A stretch of 10,265 bases of DNA from an uncultured Rubrobacteraceae bacterium. Lineage in GTDB: Bacteria; Actinomycetota; Rubrobacteria; Rubrobacterales; Rubrobacteraceae. Below, one piece after another: positions 278 through 8,629 of the stretch. The notes under the pieces were generated by a model. The model ran no database searches. It was not told where the DNA came from and saw only the letters and a program-made list of their open reading frames with translations. Location: NCBI GenBank assembly GCA_902805985.1, contig CADCUW010000576.1, positions 1 through 10,265 on the forward strand. Direction: 5' to 3'. Positions within the stretch are counted from its first letter, which is position 1, and each line of letters opens with the position of its first letter. Position numbers and translations under genes: made by a program.

Positions 278-490
278 TCAGTCTCGCGTCGAAGCGCCCT
301 TCGATTGAGCGACCGGACGACGGGCCAAGCGGACCACGGGGTCCGAGTACTCCTCGCCCGAAGAAGACACGCCAAGGAGATCGAGCGGTAGCAAGGTCCT
401 TACGCGGCCGCTAGGCATCACGAACCGCCTAGAAATCCCCTTCCGCGCCTCGGGTGGGTAACGCCCCGGGACTGTCGAGGGGGCGGTCAC
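278..490 (-). CDS. doubtful 70-aa ORF overlapping the sigma factor stop
   Basis: A GTG start overlaps the sigma-factor stop codon (GTGA), the arrangement expected for a translationally coupled anti-sigma gene. The 70-residue product (MTAPSTVPGRYPPEARKG at the start) has no transmembrane segment, no zinc-binding HxxxCxxC and no family I recognise. Its third codon positions are less GC-biased than the sigma gene's. I think it is more likely non-coding or a decayed anti-sigma start than a real gene. The rest of the 182-486 interval shows nothing else I can support. Confidence 0.18.
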   Translation of the reverse strand: MTAPSTVPGRYPPEARKGISRRFVMPSGRVRTLLPLDLLGVSSSGEEYSDPVVRLARRPVAQSKGASTRD

Positions 491-1092
491 CCGACCGCCA
501 GCGTCCGGAGCTCGGGGCGGGCGCGCAGCTTCCGCAGCCCGAGCCGTGAGCGCCCCTTGACGGTGCCCAGCGGCAGGCCCAGGCGCTCGGACACCTCCAA
601 CTGCGTCAGGCCCTCCCAGTGGAGGAGCGCGAGTACCTCGCGCTGCTCGCGCGGGATGTCCCGGAGGGCTTCGCGCACCCGAGCCCGTTTGTGGTTACCC
701 CAGGCTTCGGAGAAGGCCTCGTTCGGCTGGTTCCTCGGGGCCTCGGCCTCTACCTCCTCCCGCGTCCTGCGACGGCTCGCGGAGGAGCGGAGCCCGTCCA
801 CGCCGCGGTTGTGAACGATGGATAGTAACCAGGTCTTCACGCTGCCCCTGTGGGGCCGGTAGGTGCCCGTCGAGCGCCAGGCTTTCAGGAAGGCGTCCTG
901 GGCGAGGTCCTCGGCGGCCTGCCTCTCGCCCGTCATACGCCAGGCCACGGAGTACGCGGCGCGGGAGTGGCGGTCGTAGAGGGCGGCGAAGGCCCCGGCG
1001 TCGCCTGCCCCCACCAGGGGGATCAGTTCCTCGTCGGCGAGGCGCGCGTAGCGCCTCTCTTTTCCCATGGCGGTCGGCGTCCTGTGCGTCAC
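487..1092 (-). CDS. ECF-type RNA polymerase sigma factor (sigma-70 regions 2 and 4)
   Basis: The 201-residue protein has the two-domain layout of ECF sigma factors. Region 2 spans about residues 22-102 (LIPLVGAGDAGAFAALYDRH, then AEDLAQDAFLKAW, the core-binding and -10 recognition helices). Region 4 spans about 136-192 (LRDIPREQREVLALLHWEGL, then the helix-turn-helix LTQLEVSERLGLPLGTVKGR that reads -35 elements). It would direct RNA polymerase to an alternative promoter set. The GTG start at 1092 lies 3-5 bases after a purine-rich AAGGGGGG; an ATG eight codons in has no such site. Its leader contains a GEMM-like riboswitch ending in that ribosome site. No recognisable anti-sigma factor follows, unlike many SigK-like loci, so control may come mainly from the leader RNA. 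Target promoters cannot be deduced here. Confidence 0.93.
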   Translation of the reverse strand: MTHRTPTAMGKERRYARLADEELIPLVGAGDAGAFAALYDRHSRAAYSVAWRMTGERQAAEDLAQDAFLKAWRSTGTYRPHRGSVKTWLLSIVHNRGVDGLRSSASRRRTREEVEAEAPRNQPNEAFSEAWGNHKRARVREALRDIPREQREVLALLHWEGLTQLEVSERLGLPLGTVKGRSRLGLRKLRARPELRTLAVG

Positions 1093-1095
1093 GGT

Positions 1096-1190
1096 CCCCC
1101 CTTCGGCGGCCCGGCCGCCTCTGCTAGCTAGCGAGAGGCCCGTGGGCTTTGCGCCCCCGCCTCGCGGCGGGTTTGCCTTTGTCGGGAGGC
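1096..1190 (-). ncRNA. GEMM-I-class cyclic-dinucleotide (c-di-GMP/cGAMP) riboswitch in the sigma factor leader
   Basis: Reading the minus strand, the leader contains AAAGGCAAACC, a strong stem CCCGCC-GCGA-GGCGGG with a GNRA tetraloop, then GGCGCAAAGCC, ACGGGCCU, a variable hairpin (UCUCGCUAGCUAGCAGA) and AGGCGGCCGGGCCGCCG. In order and content this matches the GEMM-I aptamer: GGCAAACC, tetraloop hairpin, (G)ACGCAAAGCC with the tetraloop receptor, ACGGG(U/C)CU, P3, and GCCGGGUUGCCG. The closing stem can be extended by CCUCCC (1184-1189) pairing with GGGGGG (1096-1101). The latter is the Shine-Dalgarno, just upstream of the sigma GTG at 1092. Ligand binding would then be expected to hide the ribosome site (translational OFF switch). 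The motif match is direct; the ligand and sign of control are inference. Confidence 0.85.
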
Positions 1191-1330: not shown

Positions 1331-1537
1331 GGCAAACTTTCCAGAAACCCCTACTGCCGAAGTTCGCGGAACGCCCCTTCTAGAGACTGTCTGAAAAGTC
1401 CCGAAGATCCTCAAAACGGGGCCTCGTGAGACCCTGCAGAGGCCCGGCCAGTTTTGGCGTCCGAACAGCGGCCAAATGCCCGCTCGGAGCCCTACTCGAA
1501 CCCCTTTCAAGTATCTGCGCGCACCCCGGTGGATAAG
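1331..1537 (-). repeat. dispersed hairpin repeat, copy 1, split by a small IS-like insertion
   Basis: On the minus strand the left arm CTTATCCACCGGGGTGCGCGC (1537-1517) aligns with the left arm of the copy at 4169 (TTATGCACCGGAGTGCGTGG). The right arm (1382-1331), GTTCCGCGAACTTCGG then AGTAGGGGTTTCT, aligns with GTTCCGCGAAAACGTCGG then GCGTAGGGGCTTCT of the 4169 copy. Between the arms is a foreign stretch of about 134 bp (1383-1516) with IS-like ends. The repeat starts about 20 bases after the stop codon of the Crp/Fnr gene, in the same orientation. Confidence 0.6.
1383..1516 (-). mobile_element. about 134-bp MITE-like remnant with IS1182-like ends, inside the hairpin repeat
   Basis: One end reads GAGACTGTCTGAAAAG (from 1383, plus strand) and the other reads AGATACTTGAAAGG (from 1516, minus strand). 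These are imperfect inverted ends sharing GA-ACT-TGAAA. They resemble the left end GAGACTGTTTGGAAAA of the IS1182-like element at 5529. Internally, minus-strand CGAGTA followed by GGGCTCCGAG is also found, with a small gap, inside the left end of that element. The stretch encodes nothing convincing. No clear target duplication is visible. It is best read as an internally deleted, non-autonomous copy or decayed remnant. Confidence 0.45.
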
Positions 1538-1556
1538 CAAAGGTGTTGTCGTTGTG

Positions 1557-2264
1557 CTAGCGTCCCTGCTCGGCGACGCGTTGCAGGGCCTCCCGGTCCC
1601 CCACGTGGATGATGCGCCGCCTCAACTCCACAGCCCCCGCCTCCTGGAGCCGCCCAAAGGCGCGGGTCACCGCCACCCGGTTGGCCCCTACCATGGTGCC
1701 CAGCTCCTCGTGGGTGTAGGCGGCCGGCAGCCTGTAGCCCCCGCGGCGGTCCACCACCCCCTCGTCCTCGAGCAGCCGCAGGATCTGTCCGGCCAGGCGG
1801 GTAATGACCTCCTTGTGGGCGAGCTCGGCCATGCGCTCGTTGCTCTGGCCCAGCCGCTCGGCGAGGAGGTCCATCATCCTCAGCCCCACCTCCGGTTTCG
1901 CCAGGACGAAGCGGTCGAGCTCGTTGCGCCCCATGAAGGCAAGCACGCTCGGCTCGACGGCTTGGACGTGTACGGCGTCGTTGGCCCGCAACGCCTCGAA
2001 CCTCCTGACCCACAAGACCGTGCCGCCACCCAGCAGGTCGAGGGTGACCTCCTTGCCGGTGGGGGTGGTCAGGTACACCCTCACCCGACCCTCCAGGATC
2101 AGGAACAGACCGGCATCGTGGGTCTCGGGGCTGTAGAAGTCCTCTCCGCCCCGGACGGAGAATGCGGGGCACCGTTTGGCCAGGTCTTTCAACTCCCCCT
2201 CCGAGAGCGGCTCCAAAACGTCCACCTGCGAAAGGAGCCTCACGCGTCGTTCTTCTTGCGCCAT
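1557..2264 (-). CDS. Crp/Fnr-family transcriptional regulator
   Basis: The 235-residue protein has an N-terminal cyclic-nucleotide-binding-type beta-roll (about 15-125; DAGLFLILEGRVRVYLTTPT at 50-69, then GKEVTLDLLGGGTVL), a long dimerisation helix (about 118-155) and a C-terminal winged helix (HTH about 183-206, YTHEELGTMVGANRVAVTRA). The length is normal for the family. It lacks the Cys cluster of oxygen-sensing FNR (one Cys, at 32) and the full cAMP-contact motif of CRP, so the effector is unknown. I chose ATG 2264. A GTG three codons upstream (2273) is closer to the AAGGGG ribosome site and could be the true start. The stop is followed within 20 bases by a hairpin repeat. A minus-strand TATGAT (2338-2343) could be its -10, but no good -35 is visible. 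Confidence 0.92.
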   Translation of the reverse strand: MAQEERRVRLLSQVDVLEPLSEGELKDLAKRCPAFSVRGGEDFYSPETHDAGLFLILEGRVRVYLTTPTGKEVTLDLLGGGTVLWVRRFEALRANDAVHVQAVEPSVLAFMGRNELDRFVLAKPEVGLRMMDLLAERLGQSNERMAELAHKEVITRLAGQILRLLEDEGVVDRRGGYRLPAAYTHEELGTMVGANRVAVTRAFGRLQEAGAVELRRRIIHVGDREALQRVAEQGR

Positions 2265-2570
2265 CGGTGGCACCAAGCCCCTTCCGCCACGGAACGACGC
2301 GCATGTGCGCCTCTGGTTTGTGGCTTGCAACAATGCAATCATAAAGCACGGCGGCGGTGGGCGCACCGCACGAACGGACCATACTCGCAACCCTCGAGAC
2401 ATCCCTTCCGATGTGGGACGGATGGCGGAGCGCCGCGCATCGCGCACTCGTAGCGCAGGTTACGTAAGCGCCAGAGGCTGGTTGGTAATGTAGAATGAAT
2501 CCTCCGGCGAAGTAGAGATCCCCCTACGCTTGCACAACACGCCGGGGGGCGCCCTTTTTCTTTTTAGGTA
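2265..2570. other. gene-free interval upstream of the Crp/Fnr gene
   Basis: About 300 bases without a supportable gene. It holds a minus-strand AT-rich patch with TATGAT (2338-2343) and a TTGCA direct duplication (TTGCAT, TTGCAA on the minus strand) near 2325-2337, either of which could belong to the crp-like promoter. A GC run followed by a T-rich stretch (CTTTTTCTTTTT at about 2554-2565) has only a weak 4-bp stem. The ORFs here have no family resemblance. Confidence 0.4.
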
Positions 2571-2636
2571 CGAACTTCGTAGACCCCCCTCAGCACGAAG
2601 TTCGGAGAAGTCGCCTTCCACGCACTCTGGTGCATA
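2571..2636 (-). repeat. dispersed hairpin repeat, copy 2, with extra 9-bp palindrome
   Basis: The minus strand reads TATGCACCAGAGTGCGTGGA from 2636, with mini-hairpin GCAC-CAGA-GTGC, then GAAG-GCGA-CTTC, then CTCCGAACTTCGTGCTG. Both the beginning and the end match the 4169 copy, but 27 bases are missing between them. The CGAACTTCG arm pairs with a perfect CGAAGTTCG copy further on (2596-2604 with 2571-2579), giving a 9-bp stem with a 16-base loop. No T-tract follows on either strand, so it is not an ordinary intrinsic terminator. It begins about 50 bases after the stop of the zinc-ribbon gene, same orientation. Confidence 0.7.
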
Positions 2637-2688
2637 GGGACAAGGAGTAGGGCCGGGGTTCCCAAGGCTCCAGGGCTCCGCTAAACCG

Positions 2689-2922
2689 CTACCAAGCCGC
2701 CCTGTCGCCCCCGCGCCCCGCCCGGGCCCCTTCGGCGAGCCTCTCCAGCGACCTCCGCTCGGACTCCTCGAACACCCCGCGGCGGGCGTCGGCGTCGAGG
2801 TAGGGCAGGGGGTCGAGGTGGCCGCACCGTGGGCACCGAAGCGCCTCGGTGCGGCAGTCCCTCCATACGGGCTCGCGGTCCTCCACCTCGCCGACCCGGC
2901 CGCAGTAGCAGGACTCTCGCAC
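2689..2922 (-). CDS. small zinc-ribbon-like protein, function unknown
   Basis: The 77-residue product (MRESCYCGRVGEVEDREPVW at its start) carries Cys5, Cys7, Cys23, Cys30 and Cys33. These include a CPRCGHLD knuckle (30-37), which together with CYC suggests one zinc-binding site. An acidic and basic helical tail (about 43-70, DADARRGVFEESERRSLERL) follows. GTG at 2922 is preceded by AAGGGGG about 8 bases upstream. It lies 43 bases downstream of the PH-like gene on the same strand and probably shares its transcript. Its resemblance to small Rubrobacter zinc-ribbon proteins is from memory. Role unknown; possibly DNA, RNA or protein binding. Confidence 0.72.
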   Translation of the reverse strand: MRESCYCGRVGEVEDREPVWRDCRTEALRCPRCGHLDPLPYLDADARRGVFEESERRSLERLAEGARAGRGGDRAAW

Positions 2923-2965
2923 GCAGTTCGCCCCCTTCTTCTATGCAATGGGCGCAGCCCCGGGG

Positions 2966-3397
2966 CTAGGCTATGCTGGCTGCGTGCGCCTCGACGGCCC
3001 GGTTGATCCGCTCTACGGCGCCCTCGGGGTCCTCGACCTCCACCACCAGCCGCTCGTAGGCCTCGTCCCGCAGGCGGACCACCACCGCCTTATCGGCGCA
3101 CGAGTGGCGGGGGTTGTAGAACCTCACGCCCGGGTCCGGGGCGCGGTGCCCGCCGTCGTTACCGAAGATGCGCGACCTCCAGAAGCCTGGCCGCCCGAAG
3201 GCCCAGCCTCTCCACATCTTCCGCTCGATCTCGGGGTCGGCCTCGGCGCCCGAAACGTGGTCGAGGGGGATGGTGACGGTCGGCGTGTAGGCGGACCACT
3301 TGTCCCGCCTGTTGACGTTGACCACCAGGGTCTTGTTGCGGACATCGAGGGTGTTGCAGACCTCGATCCCTGTGGCCGGTGCTTGCGTAGCGCTCAC
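2966..3397 (-). CDS. hypothetical protein with PH-like beta fold
   Basis: The 143-residue protein begins MSATQAPATGIEVCNTLDVR and contains IPLDHVSGAEADPEIERKMW and, near the C-terminus, VVVRLRDEAYERLVVEVEDP followed by EGAVERINRAVEAH. The pattern of a strand series, an 'IPL.HV.GAEADP' segment and a terminal 'Y.rLVVEVEDPe..v..in' helix recalls small bacterial proteins with a PH-like barrel (from memory, usually annotated hypothetical). Here the middle part (about 60-100, rich in Arg, Gly, Trp and Phe) differs from the 'pGT.iPG...aGtF' segment I expect. GTG at 3397 has an ideal AAGGAG seven bases upstream. It is the first gene of a probable two-gene operon with the zinc-ribbon protein. Confidence 0.75.
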   Translation of the reverse strand: MSATQAPATGIEVCNTLDVRNKTLVVNVNRRDKWSAYTPTVTIPLDHVSGAEADPEIERKMWRGWAFGRPGFWRSRIFGNDGGHRAPDPGVRFYNPRHSCADKAVVVRLRDEAYERLVVEVEDPEGAVERINRAVEAHAASIA

Positions 3398-3408
3398 GGA
3401 GCTTCTCC

Positions 3409-3437
3409 TTGATTGACGCTATTGCTACTAATATGAT
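3409..3437 (+). promoter_or_regulatory. possible plus-strand housekeeping promoter
   Basis: TTGATT (3409-3414) and TATGAT (3432-3437) are separated by exactly 17 bases, in an unusually AT-rich patch. It points away from the 2966-3397 gene, toward 3450 onward, where no convincing plus-strand gene begins. It could drive an unannotated RNA across the 3502-3580 repeat, or be a chance match. Confidence 0.3.
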
Positions 3438-3501
3438 CGCAAGGTTCAGGAACCCGGCGCATCCCCTAAATGTATTATTTATTACTAGTCACTCGGTACT
3501 A

Positions 3502-3580
3502 GGCACGAACGCTGCCGTACCGGCGCGTGCGGATGCCCGGACTGCGTGGAACACTCCGTCCACGCACTCCGGTGAATAGG
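3502..3580 (-). repeat. dispersed hairpin repeat, copy 3, with perfect 7-bp stem
   Basis: The minus strand reads CCTATTCACCGGAGTGCGTG at its start. The core GCGTGGA then pairs perfectly with TCCACGC across the 8-base loop CGGAGTGT. It continues through a diverged middle to GCGTTCGTGCC (3512-3502), matching the GTTCGTGC end of copies 2 and 4. It starts 6 bases after the stop codon of the ester-cyclase-tailed ORF, same orientation. Confidence 0.7.
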
Positions 3581-3585
3581 ACGGG

Positions 3586-4164
3586 CTACGGGGGCATGAC
3601 CCCCAGCTGCCACATCATGCCGAGGTCGTCCCTGACCGCCCAGTGCTCGGTTATCTTGCCGTTTACCACGCGGAACCAGTGTGACTGCCGGGCGGCGACG
3701 CGCTTGCCGGTGGTCGGTTCCCTCGGGGAGGCGGCGGCCCTCGACGAGGCGGGTTGGGAGGTGGCGGGCACGAGGGAAGAGCCCAGCCCCGAGCCGGAGG
3801 GCACGGTCGTGGGGACGGCCGTCGCGTCTGGCACGCCGGTGATCCTCGTGGTGAGCGGCGGGCCGGCCGTCGCGCGGGCGGGCGCCGGCTCCGACCCAGG
3901 GGCGGCCCCCTCGGCCTCCGCCTCGGCCTCTGCCTCGGCCTCTGCCCCCCGAAGCCCCCCGGAGCAAGACCCGCCCTCCTCGGCGGCTCCGTCCTCGGCG
4001 GCGCTGGCTTCCCCGCCCCAGCTTCGGGGTCCGCGGGCTCCGGAGAGGAAGACGAAGAAGACGAGGCGCAGGACGACGAGTAGGGGACGGTCAGCCGCCC
4101 TCCGTGGCCGGCCGCACGCCTGTAGACTCGGTGGGGCGGGGCGGAACGAGAAGGCCGCGGCCAT
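3586..4164 (-). CDS. ORF with SnoaL/ester-cyclase C-terminal tail; probably chimeric or decayed
   Basis: The last 43 residues (3586-3717), PTTGKRVAARQSHWFRVVNG then KITEHWAVRDDLGMMWQLGV, match the C-terminal strands of SnoaL-like ester cyclases. That family is a cone-shaped alpha+beta barrel of usually 130-150 residues; the segment corresponds to 'PPTGK.V......R..dGKI.EHW...D..gm..QLG'. The N-terminal two-thirds of the fold is absent. Instead the frame runs upstream through a low-complexity Ala/Pro/Ser/Glu region, including an AEAEAEAEAEAEG tract, to a hydrophobic stretch (LLVVLRLVFFVFLSGA) near residues 28-43. No start has a convincing ribosome site. Either a rearrangement joined a cyclase tail to a secreted-type leader, or only 3586-3717 is a gene remnant. 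The plus-strand ORFs over the same bases have no family resemblance. Confidence 0.4.
   Translation of the reverse strand: MAAAFSFRPAPPSLQACGRPRRAADRPLLVVLRLVFFVFLSGARGPRSWGGEASAAEDGAAEEGGSCSGGLRGAEAEAEAEAEAEGAAPGSEPAPARATAGPPLTTRITGVPDATAVPTTVPSGSGLGSSLVPATSQPASSRAAASPREPTTGKRVAARQSHWFRVVNGKITEHWAVRDDLGMMWQLGVMPP
3909..3944 (+). repeat. three tandem 12-bp units
   Basis: CCTCGGCCTCCG is followed by two copies of CCTCGGCCTCTG. On the minus strand it encodes the Ala-Glu dipeptide tract of the chimeric ORF. A related TCCTCGGCGGC duplication lies at about 3977-4000. Such slippage-prone sequence fits a linker or a decaying region. Confidence 0.8.
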
Positions 4165-4168
4165 TCCT

Positions 4169-4241
4169 TATGCACCGGAGTGCGTGGAAGTGTTGTTCCG
4201 CGAAAACGTCGGGCGTAGGGGCTTCTCCGAAGTTCGTGCTG
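4169..4241 (+). repeat. dispersed hairpin repeat, copy 4 (fullest copy)
   Basis: TATGCACCGGAGTGCGTGGA starts the copy. The mini-hairpin GCAC-CGGA-GTGC is followed by CGTGGAA, which pairs with TTCCGCG across GTGTTG (one G-U pair). Then come GTCGGGCGTAGGGG and CTTCTCCGAAGTTCGTGCTG. It contains both halves seen separately in the other copies and serves as the reference. It lies about 60 bases upstream of the membrane-protein gene start. No clear plus-strand gene precedes it. Confidence 0.7.
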
Positions 4242-4301
4242 GGCAGCGCCGGGGAAGTATGATGTCCTTGCTACGTGGGCAACAATAGTGGAGGATCCCT
4301 C

Positions 4302-5435
4302 GTGTCGGCAGAAGAGAACAAGGCCATGGTCCTCCAGCGCCTGCGCTCGGGGGGCAGACGCCTCAAGAGCGGATGGCTCCCGATCCTCCAGACGGCGGTG
4401 GCCGCCTGCGTGGCCTGGTTCCTGGCCGTGCTGCTCCTCGGGATAGATCGCCCAACGTTCGCTCCGATAGCGGCGGTCATCGCGCTCGGGCTTGCGGTAG
4501 GCGAGCGCACCCGCCGGGCGATCGAGCTGACCCTGGCGGTGGCCATTGGGGTCGCGATGGCCGACCTCCTCCTGTCCGTCGTGGGCGTTGGCGCGTTGCA
4601 GGCCGGGCTCTTCGTGGTCCTTGCAATGGCGGTGGCCGTGGTTTTGGGTGGGGGCGACCTCGGCGTGAAGGAGGCGGCCATCTCGGCGATGATCATGATG
4701 TTCACCTTCCAACCCCCGGCTGCCGGCTTCCCGATCGATCGCTTCCTGGAGGCGCTGATCGGCGGCGGCACCGCCTTGCTTATCAACGCGCTGCTCCCGG
4801 TCAACCCCGAGCGGATGGTCGAAGAGGCGGCGTTCCCTGTCTTCGCCGAGTCTGCCGCCGTGCTCGAAGAGGTGGCCGCGGCTCTCGATGATGGGGACGC
4901 CGGGCGGGCTCAGAGAGCATACGTGAAGGCCCGAGAGATAGACGCGCGGGTGGCAGGGCTGAAGGAGGCCGTCACGGCAGGCCGGGAGACCGCCCGCCTC
5001 GCCCCGGCCCGGCGCAAGAGCCTCGGGCACATGGACCTCTACACCGGCGCGGCCGATCAGATAGACCTGACGGTGCGCGACGTCCGGGCGCTTGCCCGCG
5101 CGGCGCTCTCCGTGGTCCAGCCCGGAGCCGAAGATCCCGTGCCCGAACGCCTCCCCGCAGCGATTCGCGGTCTGGCCGGGGCGACGGAGGCCCTGGCCGC
5201 CTACCTGCAGGCCCCCGGGCATCCTCCCGACGAGACGCGCCGATTGGCCTTGGAGGCCGCAGGCGAGGCCAGCACGCTGCTCGAGGAGCACGAAGACTTG
5301 GCGAGCAACCTGGGCGTCAACGCGCTCGTCGACCAGATCCACTCCTCGGCGGTCGATCTCATAGGCGGCACCGGCGTGGACCGTGCGGAGGCCCTGCAAG
5401 CCCTGGAAGAGGCCACCGGACGCGCCTCGTGGTAG
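4302..5435 (+). CDS. FUSC / aromatic-acid-exporter-like integral membrane protein
   Basis: The 377-residue protein has an N-terminal membrane half with about six hydrophobic segments (roughly residues 26-47, 50-68, 75-94, 97-115, 122-136 and 146-163) and a long soluble C-terminal half rich in Ala, Glu and Arg helices (165-377). The segment RPTFAPIAAVIALGLAVGER, followed by TRRAIE, is the family hallmark; a positively charged loop and a second basic motif then lead to NALLPVNPERMVEEA. These features match the FUSC/ArAE (DUF939-like) proteins, some of which export aromatic acids; the substrate here is unknown. I chose GTG 4302 because GGAGG lies 7 bases upstream; the frame is open to a GTG at 4275 without a site. 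It stands alone between copies 4 and 5 of the hairpin repeat. Confidence 0.85.
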   Translation: MSAEENKAMVLQRLRSGGRRLKSGWLPILQTAVAACVAWFLAVLLLGIDRPTFAPIAAVIALGLAVGERTRRAIELTLAVAIGVAMADLLLSVVGVGALQAGLFVVLAMAVAVVLGGGDLGVKEAAISAMIMMFTFQPPAAGFPIDRFLEALIGGGTALLINALLPVNPERMVEEAAFPVFAESAAVLEEVAAALDDGDAGRAQRAYVKAREIDARVAGLKEAVTAGRETARLAPARRKSLGHMDLYTGAADQIDLTVRDVRALARAALSVVQPGAEDPVPERLPAAIRGLAGATEALAAYLQAPGHPPDETRRLALEAAGEASTLLEEHEDLASNLGVNALVDQIHSSAVDLIGGTGVDRAEALQALEEATGRASW

Positions 5436-5510
5436 CGAGCACGCTAAGAGCGAGCAGGCCGCCGGGAACGTACCTTCAAGGTCGGGCCTTGCCCAGGTGT
5501 CCGGCCCTTG

Positions 5511-5528
5511 TTCACCCGAGTGCGTGGA
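5511..5528 (+). repeat. dispersed hairpin repeat, copy 5, left arm only
   Basis: TTCACCCGAGTGCGTGGA matches the left arm of the other copies (mini-hairpin CAC-CCGA-GTG) and is cut directly by the IS1182-like left end GAGACTG. I cannot find a convincing right arm beyond the element at 6083. It lies 75 bases after the membrane-protein stop codon, same orientation. Confidence 0.65.
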
Positions 5529-6082
5529 GAGACTGTTTGGAAAATCGAAACGAGTACCGGATCGGGGTTCCGAGGACCGCCAAGACGGGGCAAAGGGGCC
5601 TCTATTGGCAGCTTCTTGGCGCCGAAAACGTCAGGTCGAGAAGCCTTGTACCAGGCCGACGCCGCCACCTGCAATGCCTGTCCCGCGAAGAGCCGATGCA
5701 CGACGAGCCCCCGCGGACGCACGCTGCGCCGCAGCCTCGACGAGACGTACTTCGACCGGGTACGCGGCTACCAAGGGACCGAACCCGACGAGAAGGCCCT
5801 CCGAAAGAGCAGGGTGTGGGTGGAGCCGCTCTTCGCCGAGGCGAAGGAATGGCACGGCATGTTCAGGTTCAGGAGGCTGCGGAAGGTGAACGGCGAAGCC
5901 TTGCTGGTCGCCGCCGGGCAGAACGTGAAGCGGCTACTGACCTTCGGAGGCCGCGGACCCGGAAAGGCGACGCAAGTGGCGGCGCTGCGCCCTCCGGGGC
6001 CACCGCCGACCCACCCCATCATCCTGGCGGCAGGCATCACCGTCGTGCGTAAGCACCTCGCCCAAAACGTTTCTCAACAGGC
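5529..6082 (+). mobile_element. internally deleted IS1182-family element, 554 bp
   Basis: The left end GAGACTGTTTGGAAAAT and the right end, read inward on the minus strand as GCCTGTTGAGAAACG, share CTGTT..GAAA as imperfect terminal inverted repeats. TGGA occurs immediately outside both ends (5525-5528 and 6083-6086), a candidate 4-bp target duplication. Inside is only the C-terminal part of a transposase, so the N-terminal and central coding region has been deleted. The element would need a transposase in trans to move. The left end sits inside the hairpin repeat at the same position as the insertion at 1383-1516. Confidence 0.65.
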
Positions 6083-6089
6083 TGGATGA
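5634..6089 (+). pseudogene. IS1182-family transposase, C-terminal remnant
   Basis: The frame reads GREALYQADAATCNACPAKS then RCTTSPRGRTLRR, the Cys-rich CxxCP....C segment, followed by SRVWVEPLFAEAKEWHGMFR, then FRRLRKVNGEALLVAAGQNV and KRLL. This is the end of IS1182-type DDE transposases: the third catalytic acid lies in the VEPLFAEAK segment and a terminal helix follows. The first two catalytic Asp residues and the DNA-binding domain are missing. The frame is open back to about 5508, but residues before about 5634 come from the IS end and repeat, not from the enzyme. The stop at 6087-6089 lies just past the right inverted repeat. Confidence 0.8.
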
Positions 6090-7758: not shown

Positions 7759-8629
7759 ATGAAGCTGGGAATACACTTCGCGAACTTCACGCTCCCGGGC
7801 GGCCCCGGGTCGCTGGCGCCTACCTTGGCCGCCACGGCCCGCGCCGCGGAGGAGGGGGGCGCCTCGGACTTCACCGTGATGGACCACTTCTTCCAGATGG
7901 AGTCCCTCGCCACCGCCCAGGACCCGATGCTCGAGGGGTACACTTCGCTCGGCTTCCTGGCCGGCCAGACCCGGACCATGACCTTAGGCGCCCTGGTCAC
8001 TGGGATCACCTACCATCATCCCGGCCTGCTCGCCAAGACCGTGATCACCCTCGACGTCCTCTCCGGTGGCCGGGCGATGCTAGGTATCGGGGCGGCGTGG
8101 TACGAGCGCGAGCACCGGAGGCTCGGAATGCCGTTCCCGGCCGTGGGTGAGCGGTTCGAGCGCCTGGAGGAGACGCTGGAGATCTGCAAGCAGATTATGG
8201 GGCGACGACGACGGTCCCTACAAGGGCCGCCACTACCGGCTGGAGGAGACGATCTGCTCGCCCCGCCCGGTCCAGCAGCCGGCCCCGAAGATACTCATTG
8301 GGGGCATGGGCGAGCGCAAGACTCTCCGCCTCGTCGCGCGCCACGCCGACGCGTGCAACCTGCTCGCCTTCGACCCGACGACCGTGAGACACAAGCTCGA
8401 CGTGCTGGCTCGCCACTGCGAGTCCGAAGGCCGAGACCCAGCCGGCATAGAGAAGACCATAATCACGGGCTCGGACCCGCTCGACGGCGCGGACGCCTTC
8501 GTCGCCAGCATGGAAGGTTACGCTGAACTCGGGATAGAGAAGGTCTGGGTGGGCCCGCCCGGCCCCGAGCCGGCGGCCTGGGTCGGACGCGTCACCGAGA
8601 AGGTCGTCCCGAGGCTGCGGGAACTGTAG
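7759..8629 (+). pseudogene. LLM-class F420-dependent oxidoreductase, broken by a frameshift near 8200
   Basis: The first frame (7759 to about 8200) encodes MKLGIHFANFTLPGG and then the LLM-class TIM-barrel signatures FTVMDHFFQMES, LGALVTGITYHHPGLLAK, TLDVLSGGRAMLGIGAAWYE and REHRRLGMPFP. After GAGATCTGCAAGCAGATTATG the homologous reading resumes in another frame as WGDDDGPYKGRHYRLEETIC, KILIGGMGERKTLRLVARHA, DACNLLAFDPTTVRHKLDVL, ending VVPRLREL. A loss of two bases (ATG TGG GGC to ATG GGG C) would explain it. The intact enzyme would be a roughly 290-residue F420- or FMN-dependent monooxygenase/dehydrogenase. ATG 7759 has GAAAGG eight bases upstream. The break may be real or a sequencing error; coding bias is otherwise well kept. 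Confidence 0.85.

Follow-up and report, generated by a model that had tools for sequence, protein, structure and literature searches.

The window described here, a stretch of 10,265 bp that constitutes contig C576 of an uncultured Rubrobacteraceae bacterium, carries five copies of a short dispersed repeat. With a probability of roughly 0.63, this repeat is the junction of mobile gene cassette arrays that are joined at the sequence TATTCACCSGAGTGCGTGGA. Comparison of the nucleotide sequences of its copies, in this genome and in related genomes, places the repeats in arrays with a common orientation, in which the segments between repeats behave as units and similarity breaks off at the repeat core. 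Blocks of roughly one gene appear to be shuffled and exchanged among Rubrobacter relatives without the integron hallmarks that were tested, and the arrangement suggests an undescribed bacterial way to swap genes. The textbook case of single-gene cassettes reshuffled at short sites is the integron. If the present reading is true, cassette-style gene storage and trading arose more than once, a separate cassette system in the Rubrobacteraceae helps to explain the variable gene content of these genomes, and a novel recombinase, with its site, becomes a target for searches.

The assembly containing the window is 4.23 Mb in 707 contigs, with 88.6% completeness and 5.93% contamination. The repeat core (core A) is the approximately 20-bp consensus TATTCACCSGAGTGCGTGGA of 56 type-1 copies, which also give an extended consensus of approximately 70 nt, CYTATTCACCSGAGTGCGTGGAAGGnnnRTTCTSCGAACTTCGcsykkAGGGGGTTCTcnGAAGTTCG. 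The dispersed repeat family proposed in the initial annotation is real, since this genome holds 148 core matches with at most two mismatches compared to seven for the reversed pattern, and matches are found in relatives too. A core profile was run on 522,781 bp in 41 stretches, most of which were picked for holding copies, and identified 139 places of at least 10 bits, compared to one in the same DNA reversed as a control. Relatives were sampled as nine genomes of the genus, 36 of the Rubrobacteraceae and 60 in all. An 18-base pattern matches 20 of the 60 genomes, with six matches over all 60 for the reversed control, and it matches all nine genomes of the genus with 131, 11, 65, 59, 55, 71, 2, 5 and 36 copies, the 59 and 71 belonging to genomes G003 and G005. 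By the same pattern, two other Rubrobacteraceae genera hold up to 14 and 16 copies in a genome. A covariance model of the repeat, which the initial annotation had recommended, finds matches in six of 12 genomes. Among the named records listed as carrying the exact 20-base core, almost all belong to the Rubrobacteraceae or are otherwise actinobacterial, and nearly all are titled as metagenome-assembled genomes (MAGs); the set not so titled is 'Actinobacteria bacterium isolate 28', and the outliers are a single exact core in a Thermomicrobiales MAG and a single one in a Vibrio. The core in the contig binned as Thermomicrobiales (L122:7580–7599) is there by transfer or by binning error. The repeat has no Rfam match at E-values up to 5, the exact core is absent from the viral contigs searched (a set that leaves out the phage-record collection), and plasmids gave no core match. 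The consensus has no terminal inversion of the kind that marks a miniature inverted-repeat transposable element (MITE), and no clear empty site was recognised for 265 copies when these were compared with the fetched loci. The titles and opening abstract text of the open-licence papers listed do not describe a repeat of this kind from Rubrobacter.

Across 285 copies, the core is followed by a two-arm tail (117 copies), a one-arm tail (70), a tail of the GCAGGATCCTGCAT type (29), the end of an insertion sequence (IS; 20) or another sequence (49). The core is of type A in 248 copies, of type B in 16 and unassigned in 21, a tally in which core B is under-counted because the profile was built on core A; a separate listing holds 58 B-like places, some of them weak. 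The rarer core B, TATTCACCCAACCTCGTAGA, is intermixed with core A in the same arrays (for example at L167:4819 and L061:331). The two cores differ mainly in the middle (CSGAGTGC in A and CCAACCTC in B) and agree in their outer letters. Some copies directly follow a terminator-like stem, GGGCCGGGG..CCCCGGCCCTTCTTCTTGCC, in their upstream flanks (for example L167:4819 and L134:583).

The repeats are clustered, with 52 of the 71 copies in G005 having a neighbour within 3 kb where 10.6% would be expected. Neighbouring copies less than 5 kb apart point in the same direction in 53 cases and in opposite directions in 10 (G005 and G004), and a larger set of neighbours, which includes overlapping loci, gives 184 and 20; beyond 5 kb the counts are 6 and 5. 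Gene positions around the repeats were taken from a simple gene finder made for this analysis. Between same-direction neighbours 0.25 to 3.5 kb apart there are 151 segments, of which 10, 96, 33, 8, 2 and 2 contain 0, 1, 2, 3, 5 and 6 genes, respectively. The gene of a single-gene segment runs with the repeat in 57 cases and against it in 39, so that the direction of the repeat belongs to the array and not to the gene. A Pfam scan of 181 of the 208 array genes returned cupin, SnoaL, hydrolase, methyltransferase and regulator families among those listed (the best 25 of 78 and the best 25 of 167). PADLOC gave matches to 60 families, each in at most three of 99 proteins, and a reading of the arrays as defence islands was rejected on these numbers.

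The segments between repeats behave as units. Among the 151 segments are 35 pairs that are homologous at the DNA level, 32 of them in the same direction, and eight of the 11 longest pairs are 80–93% identical in DNA and lie among unrelated neighbours. In the 11 pairs with alignments longer than 600 bp, the right neighbour is shared in none, and on the left no neighbour is shared in 10 and a 39-bp match is found in one; four of the left and two of the right flanks had less than 300 bp to compare. Within the window, three neighbouring units (an ECF sigma factor gene, a Crp-type regulator gene and a pair of genes for 77- and 143-aa proteins) each have an 82–85% DNA homologue elsewhere in the same assembly, and the neighbours of these second copies differ, whether they belong to this genome or to a second strain. 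Homologous genes also keep their direction relative to the repeat: for genes within 700 bp of a repeat at 128 non-redundant loci, once reciprocal rows and genes close to IS ends had been taken out, the direction is the same or opposite in 61 and 3 comparisons at 60% identity or more, in 27 and 7 at 45–60%, and in 60 and 74 below 45%.

Three tests in which no pairs were chosen by alignment ends locate the breaks at the repeat. Gene pairs are kept in 5 of 65 cases across a core and in 56 of 154 without a repeat. Of 45 repeats that have homologues on either side, 2 keep these neighbours in order, compared to 10 of 31 gaps that lack a repeat but lie no more than 2.5 kb from one (p = 0.0025) and 9 of 14 repeat-free gaps elsewhere (p = 7e-6). 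DNA alignments of 65–99% identity cross a core with at least 60 bp to spare in 2 of 414 cases, and 243 of the 414 have a core inside them or within 150 bp. These tests carry more weight than the break-point pairs, which were chosen through alignments ending near the core; in those pairs, at a 1% threshold, similarity extends up to the core in 20 of 31 pairs with a homologous upstream gene and after the core in 11 of 20 pairs with a homologous downstream gene, with none continuing beyond the core on the other side. Column profiles for both sides show similarity above random on the side of the homologous gene and random similarity beyond the core.

Several observations weigh against the cassette reading, the selection of the break-point pairs among them. 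Similarity ends before the tested core region in 11 of the 31 upstream and 9 of the 20 downstream pairs, and continuity across the core is found in L064/L182, L135/L173 and L070/L072. Letters at the variable positions of the core go with neither neighbour, a pattern that one crossover fails to explain and that points to numerous exchanges or to conversion. The data show neither a cassette in circular form nor the gain or loss of one at a fixed array, and one comparison of an array edge yielded no usable shared order. The kept gene-to-repeat direction may in part simply reflect joint descent of a gene with its repeat. The family is patchy in its distribution, with two copies in G006, a two-contig assembly of the same genus, and the assemblies that bear arrays are fragmented, almost all of them carrying the MAG label. 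Given the 5.93% contamination, the second copies of the window units may be those of another strain. In 10 of 13 contig groups of G005 the direction of the repeat and the sign of the GC skew concur (the skews being mostly below 0.03), and replication may be the cause of the orientation; this agreement and the exceptions that cross the core lower our confidence.

How cassettes would move can be outlined tentatively. In the most far-reaching form of this reading, at well below an even chance, the system would be site-specific and independent of integrons: a dedicated, hitherto undescribed recombinase would move one-gene cassettes between cores of approximately 20 bp whose spacers come in two or more types (A and B), and the chromosomal arrays so built would share cassettes across species. 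A cassette would start with a repeat tail of the two-arm, one-arm or GCAGGATCCTGCAT type, would usually carry one gene, pointing either way and in at least some cases accompanied by a control region of its own (such as the riboswitch of the sigma factor in the window), and would end at the next core, TATTCACCSGAGTGCGTGGA or the rarer TATTCACCCAACCTCGTAGA. Cassettes joined as direct repeats and exchanged at a short core are the pattern expected from excision and insertion of circles by recombination between two cores. The enzyme would most likely be a site-specific recombinase, with RecA acting on short homology as the main alternative, and cores A and B, which differ in the middle and agree in their outer letters, would be spacer variants of its site.

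No recombinase is present among the Pfam families listed for the 181 array genes, which also counts against the cassette reading, as does the failure of the best-placed candidate: a XerC-like integrase (L219) was rejected as the enzyme since it has no close homologue in the copy-rich genomes G003 and G005. Its close homologues are found in G000, G001, G004 (with stops), G006, G008 and G022, with a fragment in G002. No core of at least 8 bits was detected in the loci around 17 PF00589 matches. Two tyrosine integrase genes (L215:3005–3904 and L072:3343–4395) lie near the first repeat of an array, at approximately 2.4 kb in contig C496 and 2.6 kb in contig C33 of G005, and a link of these two genes to the arrays is possible. 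The Y1 transposase domain PF01797 is absent from this genome and is present in three of 36 genomes searched (two of the nine of the genus); an origin of the repeat from a Y1 transposase or REP-associated tyrosine transposase (RAYT) was rejected because of its absence here. In G005 a Y1 transposase gene stands beside a TnpB gene (L197:3329–4858), an IS200/IS605-type pair approximately 6 kb from a repeat array.

Homologous recombination by RecA at a spread MITE-like repeat, using 20–70 bp of shared sequence and no dedicated recombinase, is a possible but rather unlikely alternative to a site-specific system. The searches, in which no dedicated enzyme was found, fit this explanation, as do the longest exact runs shared by copies of this genome, which are below 31 bp for 70 of 103 copies and reach 60; exact runs of such length are borderline for RecA. 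These runs are mostly short, however, and independent insertion of the repeat would leave the common direction of the arrays and the fixed gene-to-repeat direction unexplained. A precedent is offered by the repeat arrays of Neisseria, which according to one study are thought to aid gene exchange; they contain dRS3, a 20-bp repeat (ATTCCC-N8-GGGAAT) with inverted ends, in intergenic repeat arrays of 200–2700 bp (PMC3898611). The dRS3 and Neisseria intergenic mosaic element (NIME) repeats and minimal mobile elements resemble the present family in having a repeat of approximately 20 bp beside longer intergenic repeat blocks and in serving as integration target, whereas here the core consensus differs, single co-oriented repeats alternate with genes, and the phylum is another. 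The exact shared runs also bear on an assembly artefact, in which short-read assembly joined unrelated DNA at repeats. This would be in keeping with the fragmentary MAG records and nevertheless appears improbable, because two of the 103 copies share a run of at least 55 identical bases with another copy while 70 share less than 31, and because the contigs with arrays stem from several projects that name their contigs differently. Insertion of a mobile element with a strand bias relative to replication, in fast-changing islands and with no cassette movement, is improbable as well. IS200/IS605 elements do insert in one direction relative to replication, and the agreement with GC skew would be accounted for; yet opposite repeat directions occur within 20 kb on single contigs, neighbours beyond 5 kb show no preference (the 6 and 5 given above), the Y1 transposase is present in two of the nine genomes of the genus and absent from this one, and both the break points at the core and the unconserved neighbours, as compared to nearby repeat-free gaps, would be left unexplained.

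Two known classes of element remain to be weighed, integrons and 3'-end repeats. Arrays of attC sites that have lost their integrase, or in which it was missed (clusters of attC sites lacking integron-integrases, CALIN), share with the present arrays the directly repeated sites, the usual single gene per unit, the shuffled neighbours and the varied accessory cargo. The attC boxes of integrons are the paired motifs RYYYAAC and GTTRRRY, and the reverse strand of core B reads GTTGGGT, which fits the latter. As an explanation CALIN is about as improbable as strand-biased insertion: the integron integrase TIGR02249 is above cut-off in none of the 36 Rubrobacteraceae genomes (including this one, at 88.6% completeness) and in three of the 60 genomes, all from other families of the phylum; by motif count no more than 13 of 285 copies have GTTRRRY at any one fixed position, so attC boxes are not the rule; and genes run in both directions. 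Unlike attC sites, which are conserved in structure, the core here is nearly invariant in sequence with no compensatory pairs. A large survey reports that complete integrons were not found in Actinobacteria (PMC9024848).

The initial annotation had instead compared the repeat to repetitive extragenic palindromic (REP) sequences and bacterial interspersed mosaic elements (BIMEs) that end or stabilise transcripts at gene 3' ends. The likeness holds in that the repeat is short, dispersed, intergenic, partly palindromic and an IS landing site, and IS elements insert into REP elements as well, according to one study (PMC1525189). It fails for REP, BIME and REPIN elements in that PF01797 is absent here, genes lie between the copies, and neighbours are direct repeats rather than inverted pairs. 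The proposed placement is borne out in the window, where four of five copies follow a stop codon in the orientation of the gene (at approximately 20, 51, 6 and 72 nt), and is weak family-wide: the upstream gene is co-oriented with the repeat in 133 of 226 copies and the downstream gene in 120, and of the gene ends that face a repeat, 239 of 452 are 3' ends, compared to 372 of 804 at gaps lacking one. Convergent gaps (66 of 226 at repeats, 70 of 402 repeat-free), the GGCCCTY motif of the terminator-like stem within 45 nt upstream (38 of 285 copies) and a GC-rich stem of at least 8 (49 of 285, 27 after shuffling) would favour a transcript role. A stem said to be preserved by different means is not supported as covariation, since no pair has changed on both sides; for two candidate stems, 89.6% of cells are paired, compared to 27.7–54.1% when the stems are slid. 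When folded, window copies 2 and 3 beat all 200 shuffles, and window copy 4 and three others do not. It is the core sequence itself that the copies have in common. With a weak 3'-end bias, genes in both directions and a repeat direction that goes with the array, the repeat is not mainly a 3'-end hairpin, and an element that ends or protects transcripts has only a very slight chance of being the explanation.

The IS-like elements and MITEs associated with the repeat are secondary users that treat it as a landing site, and the IS is a guest and not the source of the repeat. IS-like ends directly follow the core in the 20 copies counted above; we take them to be IS1182-like from their end sequences and a PF13751 match, and elements of approximately 134–142 bp within repeats are presumed to be MITEs. 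A MITE family of approximately 141 bp, with ends like GARACTGTYTGRAAA, is found in repeat tails at L072:9109–9250, L165:7050–7191 and L160:331–472. The right flank of the insertions reads GGAAGG or TGGAAGG, which suggests, by eye, a target duplication of 3–4 bp. IS1272, which we assume belongs to the IS1182 family, differs from this arrangement in that no target replacement is apparent here. As described, IS1272 has preferred palindromic (inverted-repeat) targets (PMC5678879).

The features of the window are collected in the table. Core copies are located at 2638 (-), 3580 (-), 4167 (+) and 5507 (+), in addition to the interrupted copy 1. Copies 2, 3 and 4 are uninterrupted, and copies 1 and 5 are interrupted by a MITE and an IS-like element, respectively; copy 5 stops at the core because the IS-like end begins at 5529. 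The core spelling CACC-GGAG-TGCGTGGA that had been assigned to all five copies applies to copies 3 and 4; copy 2 reads CAGAG, copy 5 CCGAG and copy 1 CGGGGTGCGCG instead.

Features of the 10,265-bp window related to the repeat and to the units between its copies
Feature	Position	Strand	Basis or remark
ECF sigma factor gene (487–1068/1092) with c-di-GMP-I-GGC riboswitch (1101–1186)	487..1186	-	
Copy 1, 3' part (tail AAGGGGCGTTCCGCGAACTTCGG...GTTTCTGGAAAGTTTG)	1331..1382	-	sequence; weak core/tail match at 1380–1400 (-)
Putative MITE (about 134 bp) interrupting copy 1	about 1383..1516	.	ends like the 142-bp element L160:331–472; far end by eye, degenerate
Copy 1, core part (TATCCACCGGGGTGCGCG)	about 1518..1537	-	sequence
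Cassette gene, Crp/Fnr-type regulator	1557..2225	-	82% DNA homologue between repeats, contig C13 (L062)
Copy 2, core type A and two-arm tail	2569..2638	-	core profile
Two-gene cassette (77-aa and 143-aa proteins)	2689..3397	-	85% DNA homologue at the end of contig C315 (L073), next to a repeat
Copy 3, type A core followed by an aberrant tail that contains the perfect GCGTGGA/TCCACGC hairpin	3505..3580	-	profile, folding
Gene with SnoaL C-terminal piece	3586..4164	-	flanked by copies 3 and 4, oriented divergently
Copy 4, core type A and two-arm tail	4167..4239	+	core profile
Cassette gene, FUSC/ArAE-type exporter	4275..5435	+	flanked by copies 4 and 5
Copy 5, core only, cut by IS-like end directly after GTGGA	5507..5528	+	core profile
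IS remnant holding a partial DDE transposase (PF13751)	5529..6089	+	position spans the part recognised

Within the MITE of copy 1, no inverted repeat of at least 10 nt was found. The riboswitch at 1101–1186 scores 62.3 bits, with a gathering threshold of 59, and is located directly upstream of the ECF sigma factor gene. The core profile detected no repeat on the far side of this unit within the window, and in contig C510 (L067) a DNA homologue of the region, 83% identical, is flanked by repeats. Further downstream, at 7759–8629 (+), a luciferase-like monooxygenase gene apparently lies in two frames that change near position 8200, due either to a frameshift or to a sequencing error.

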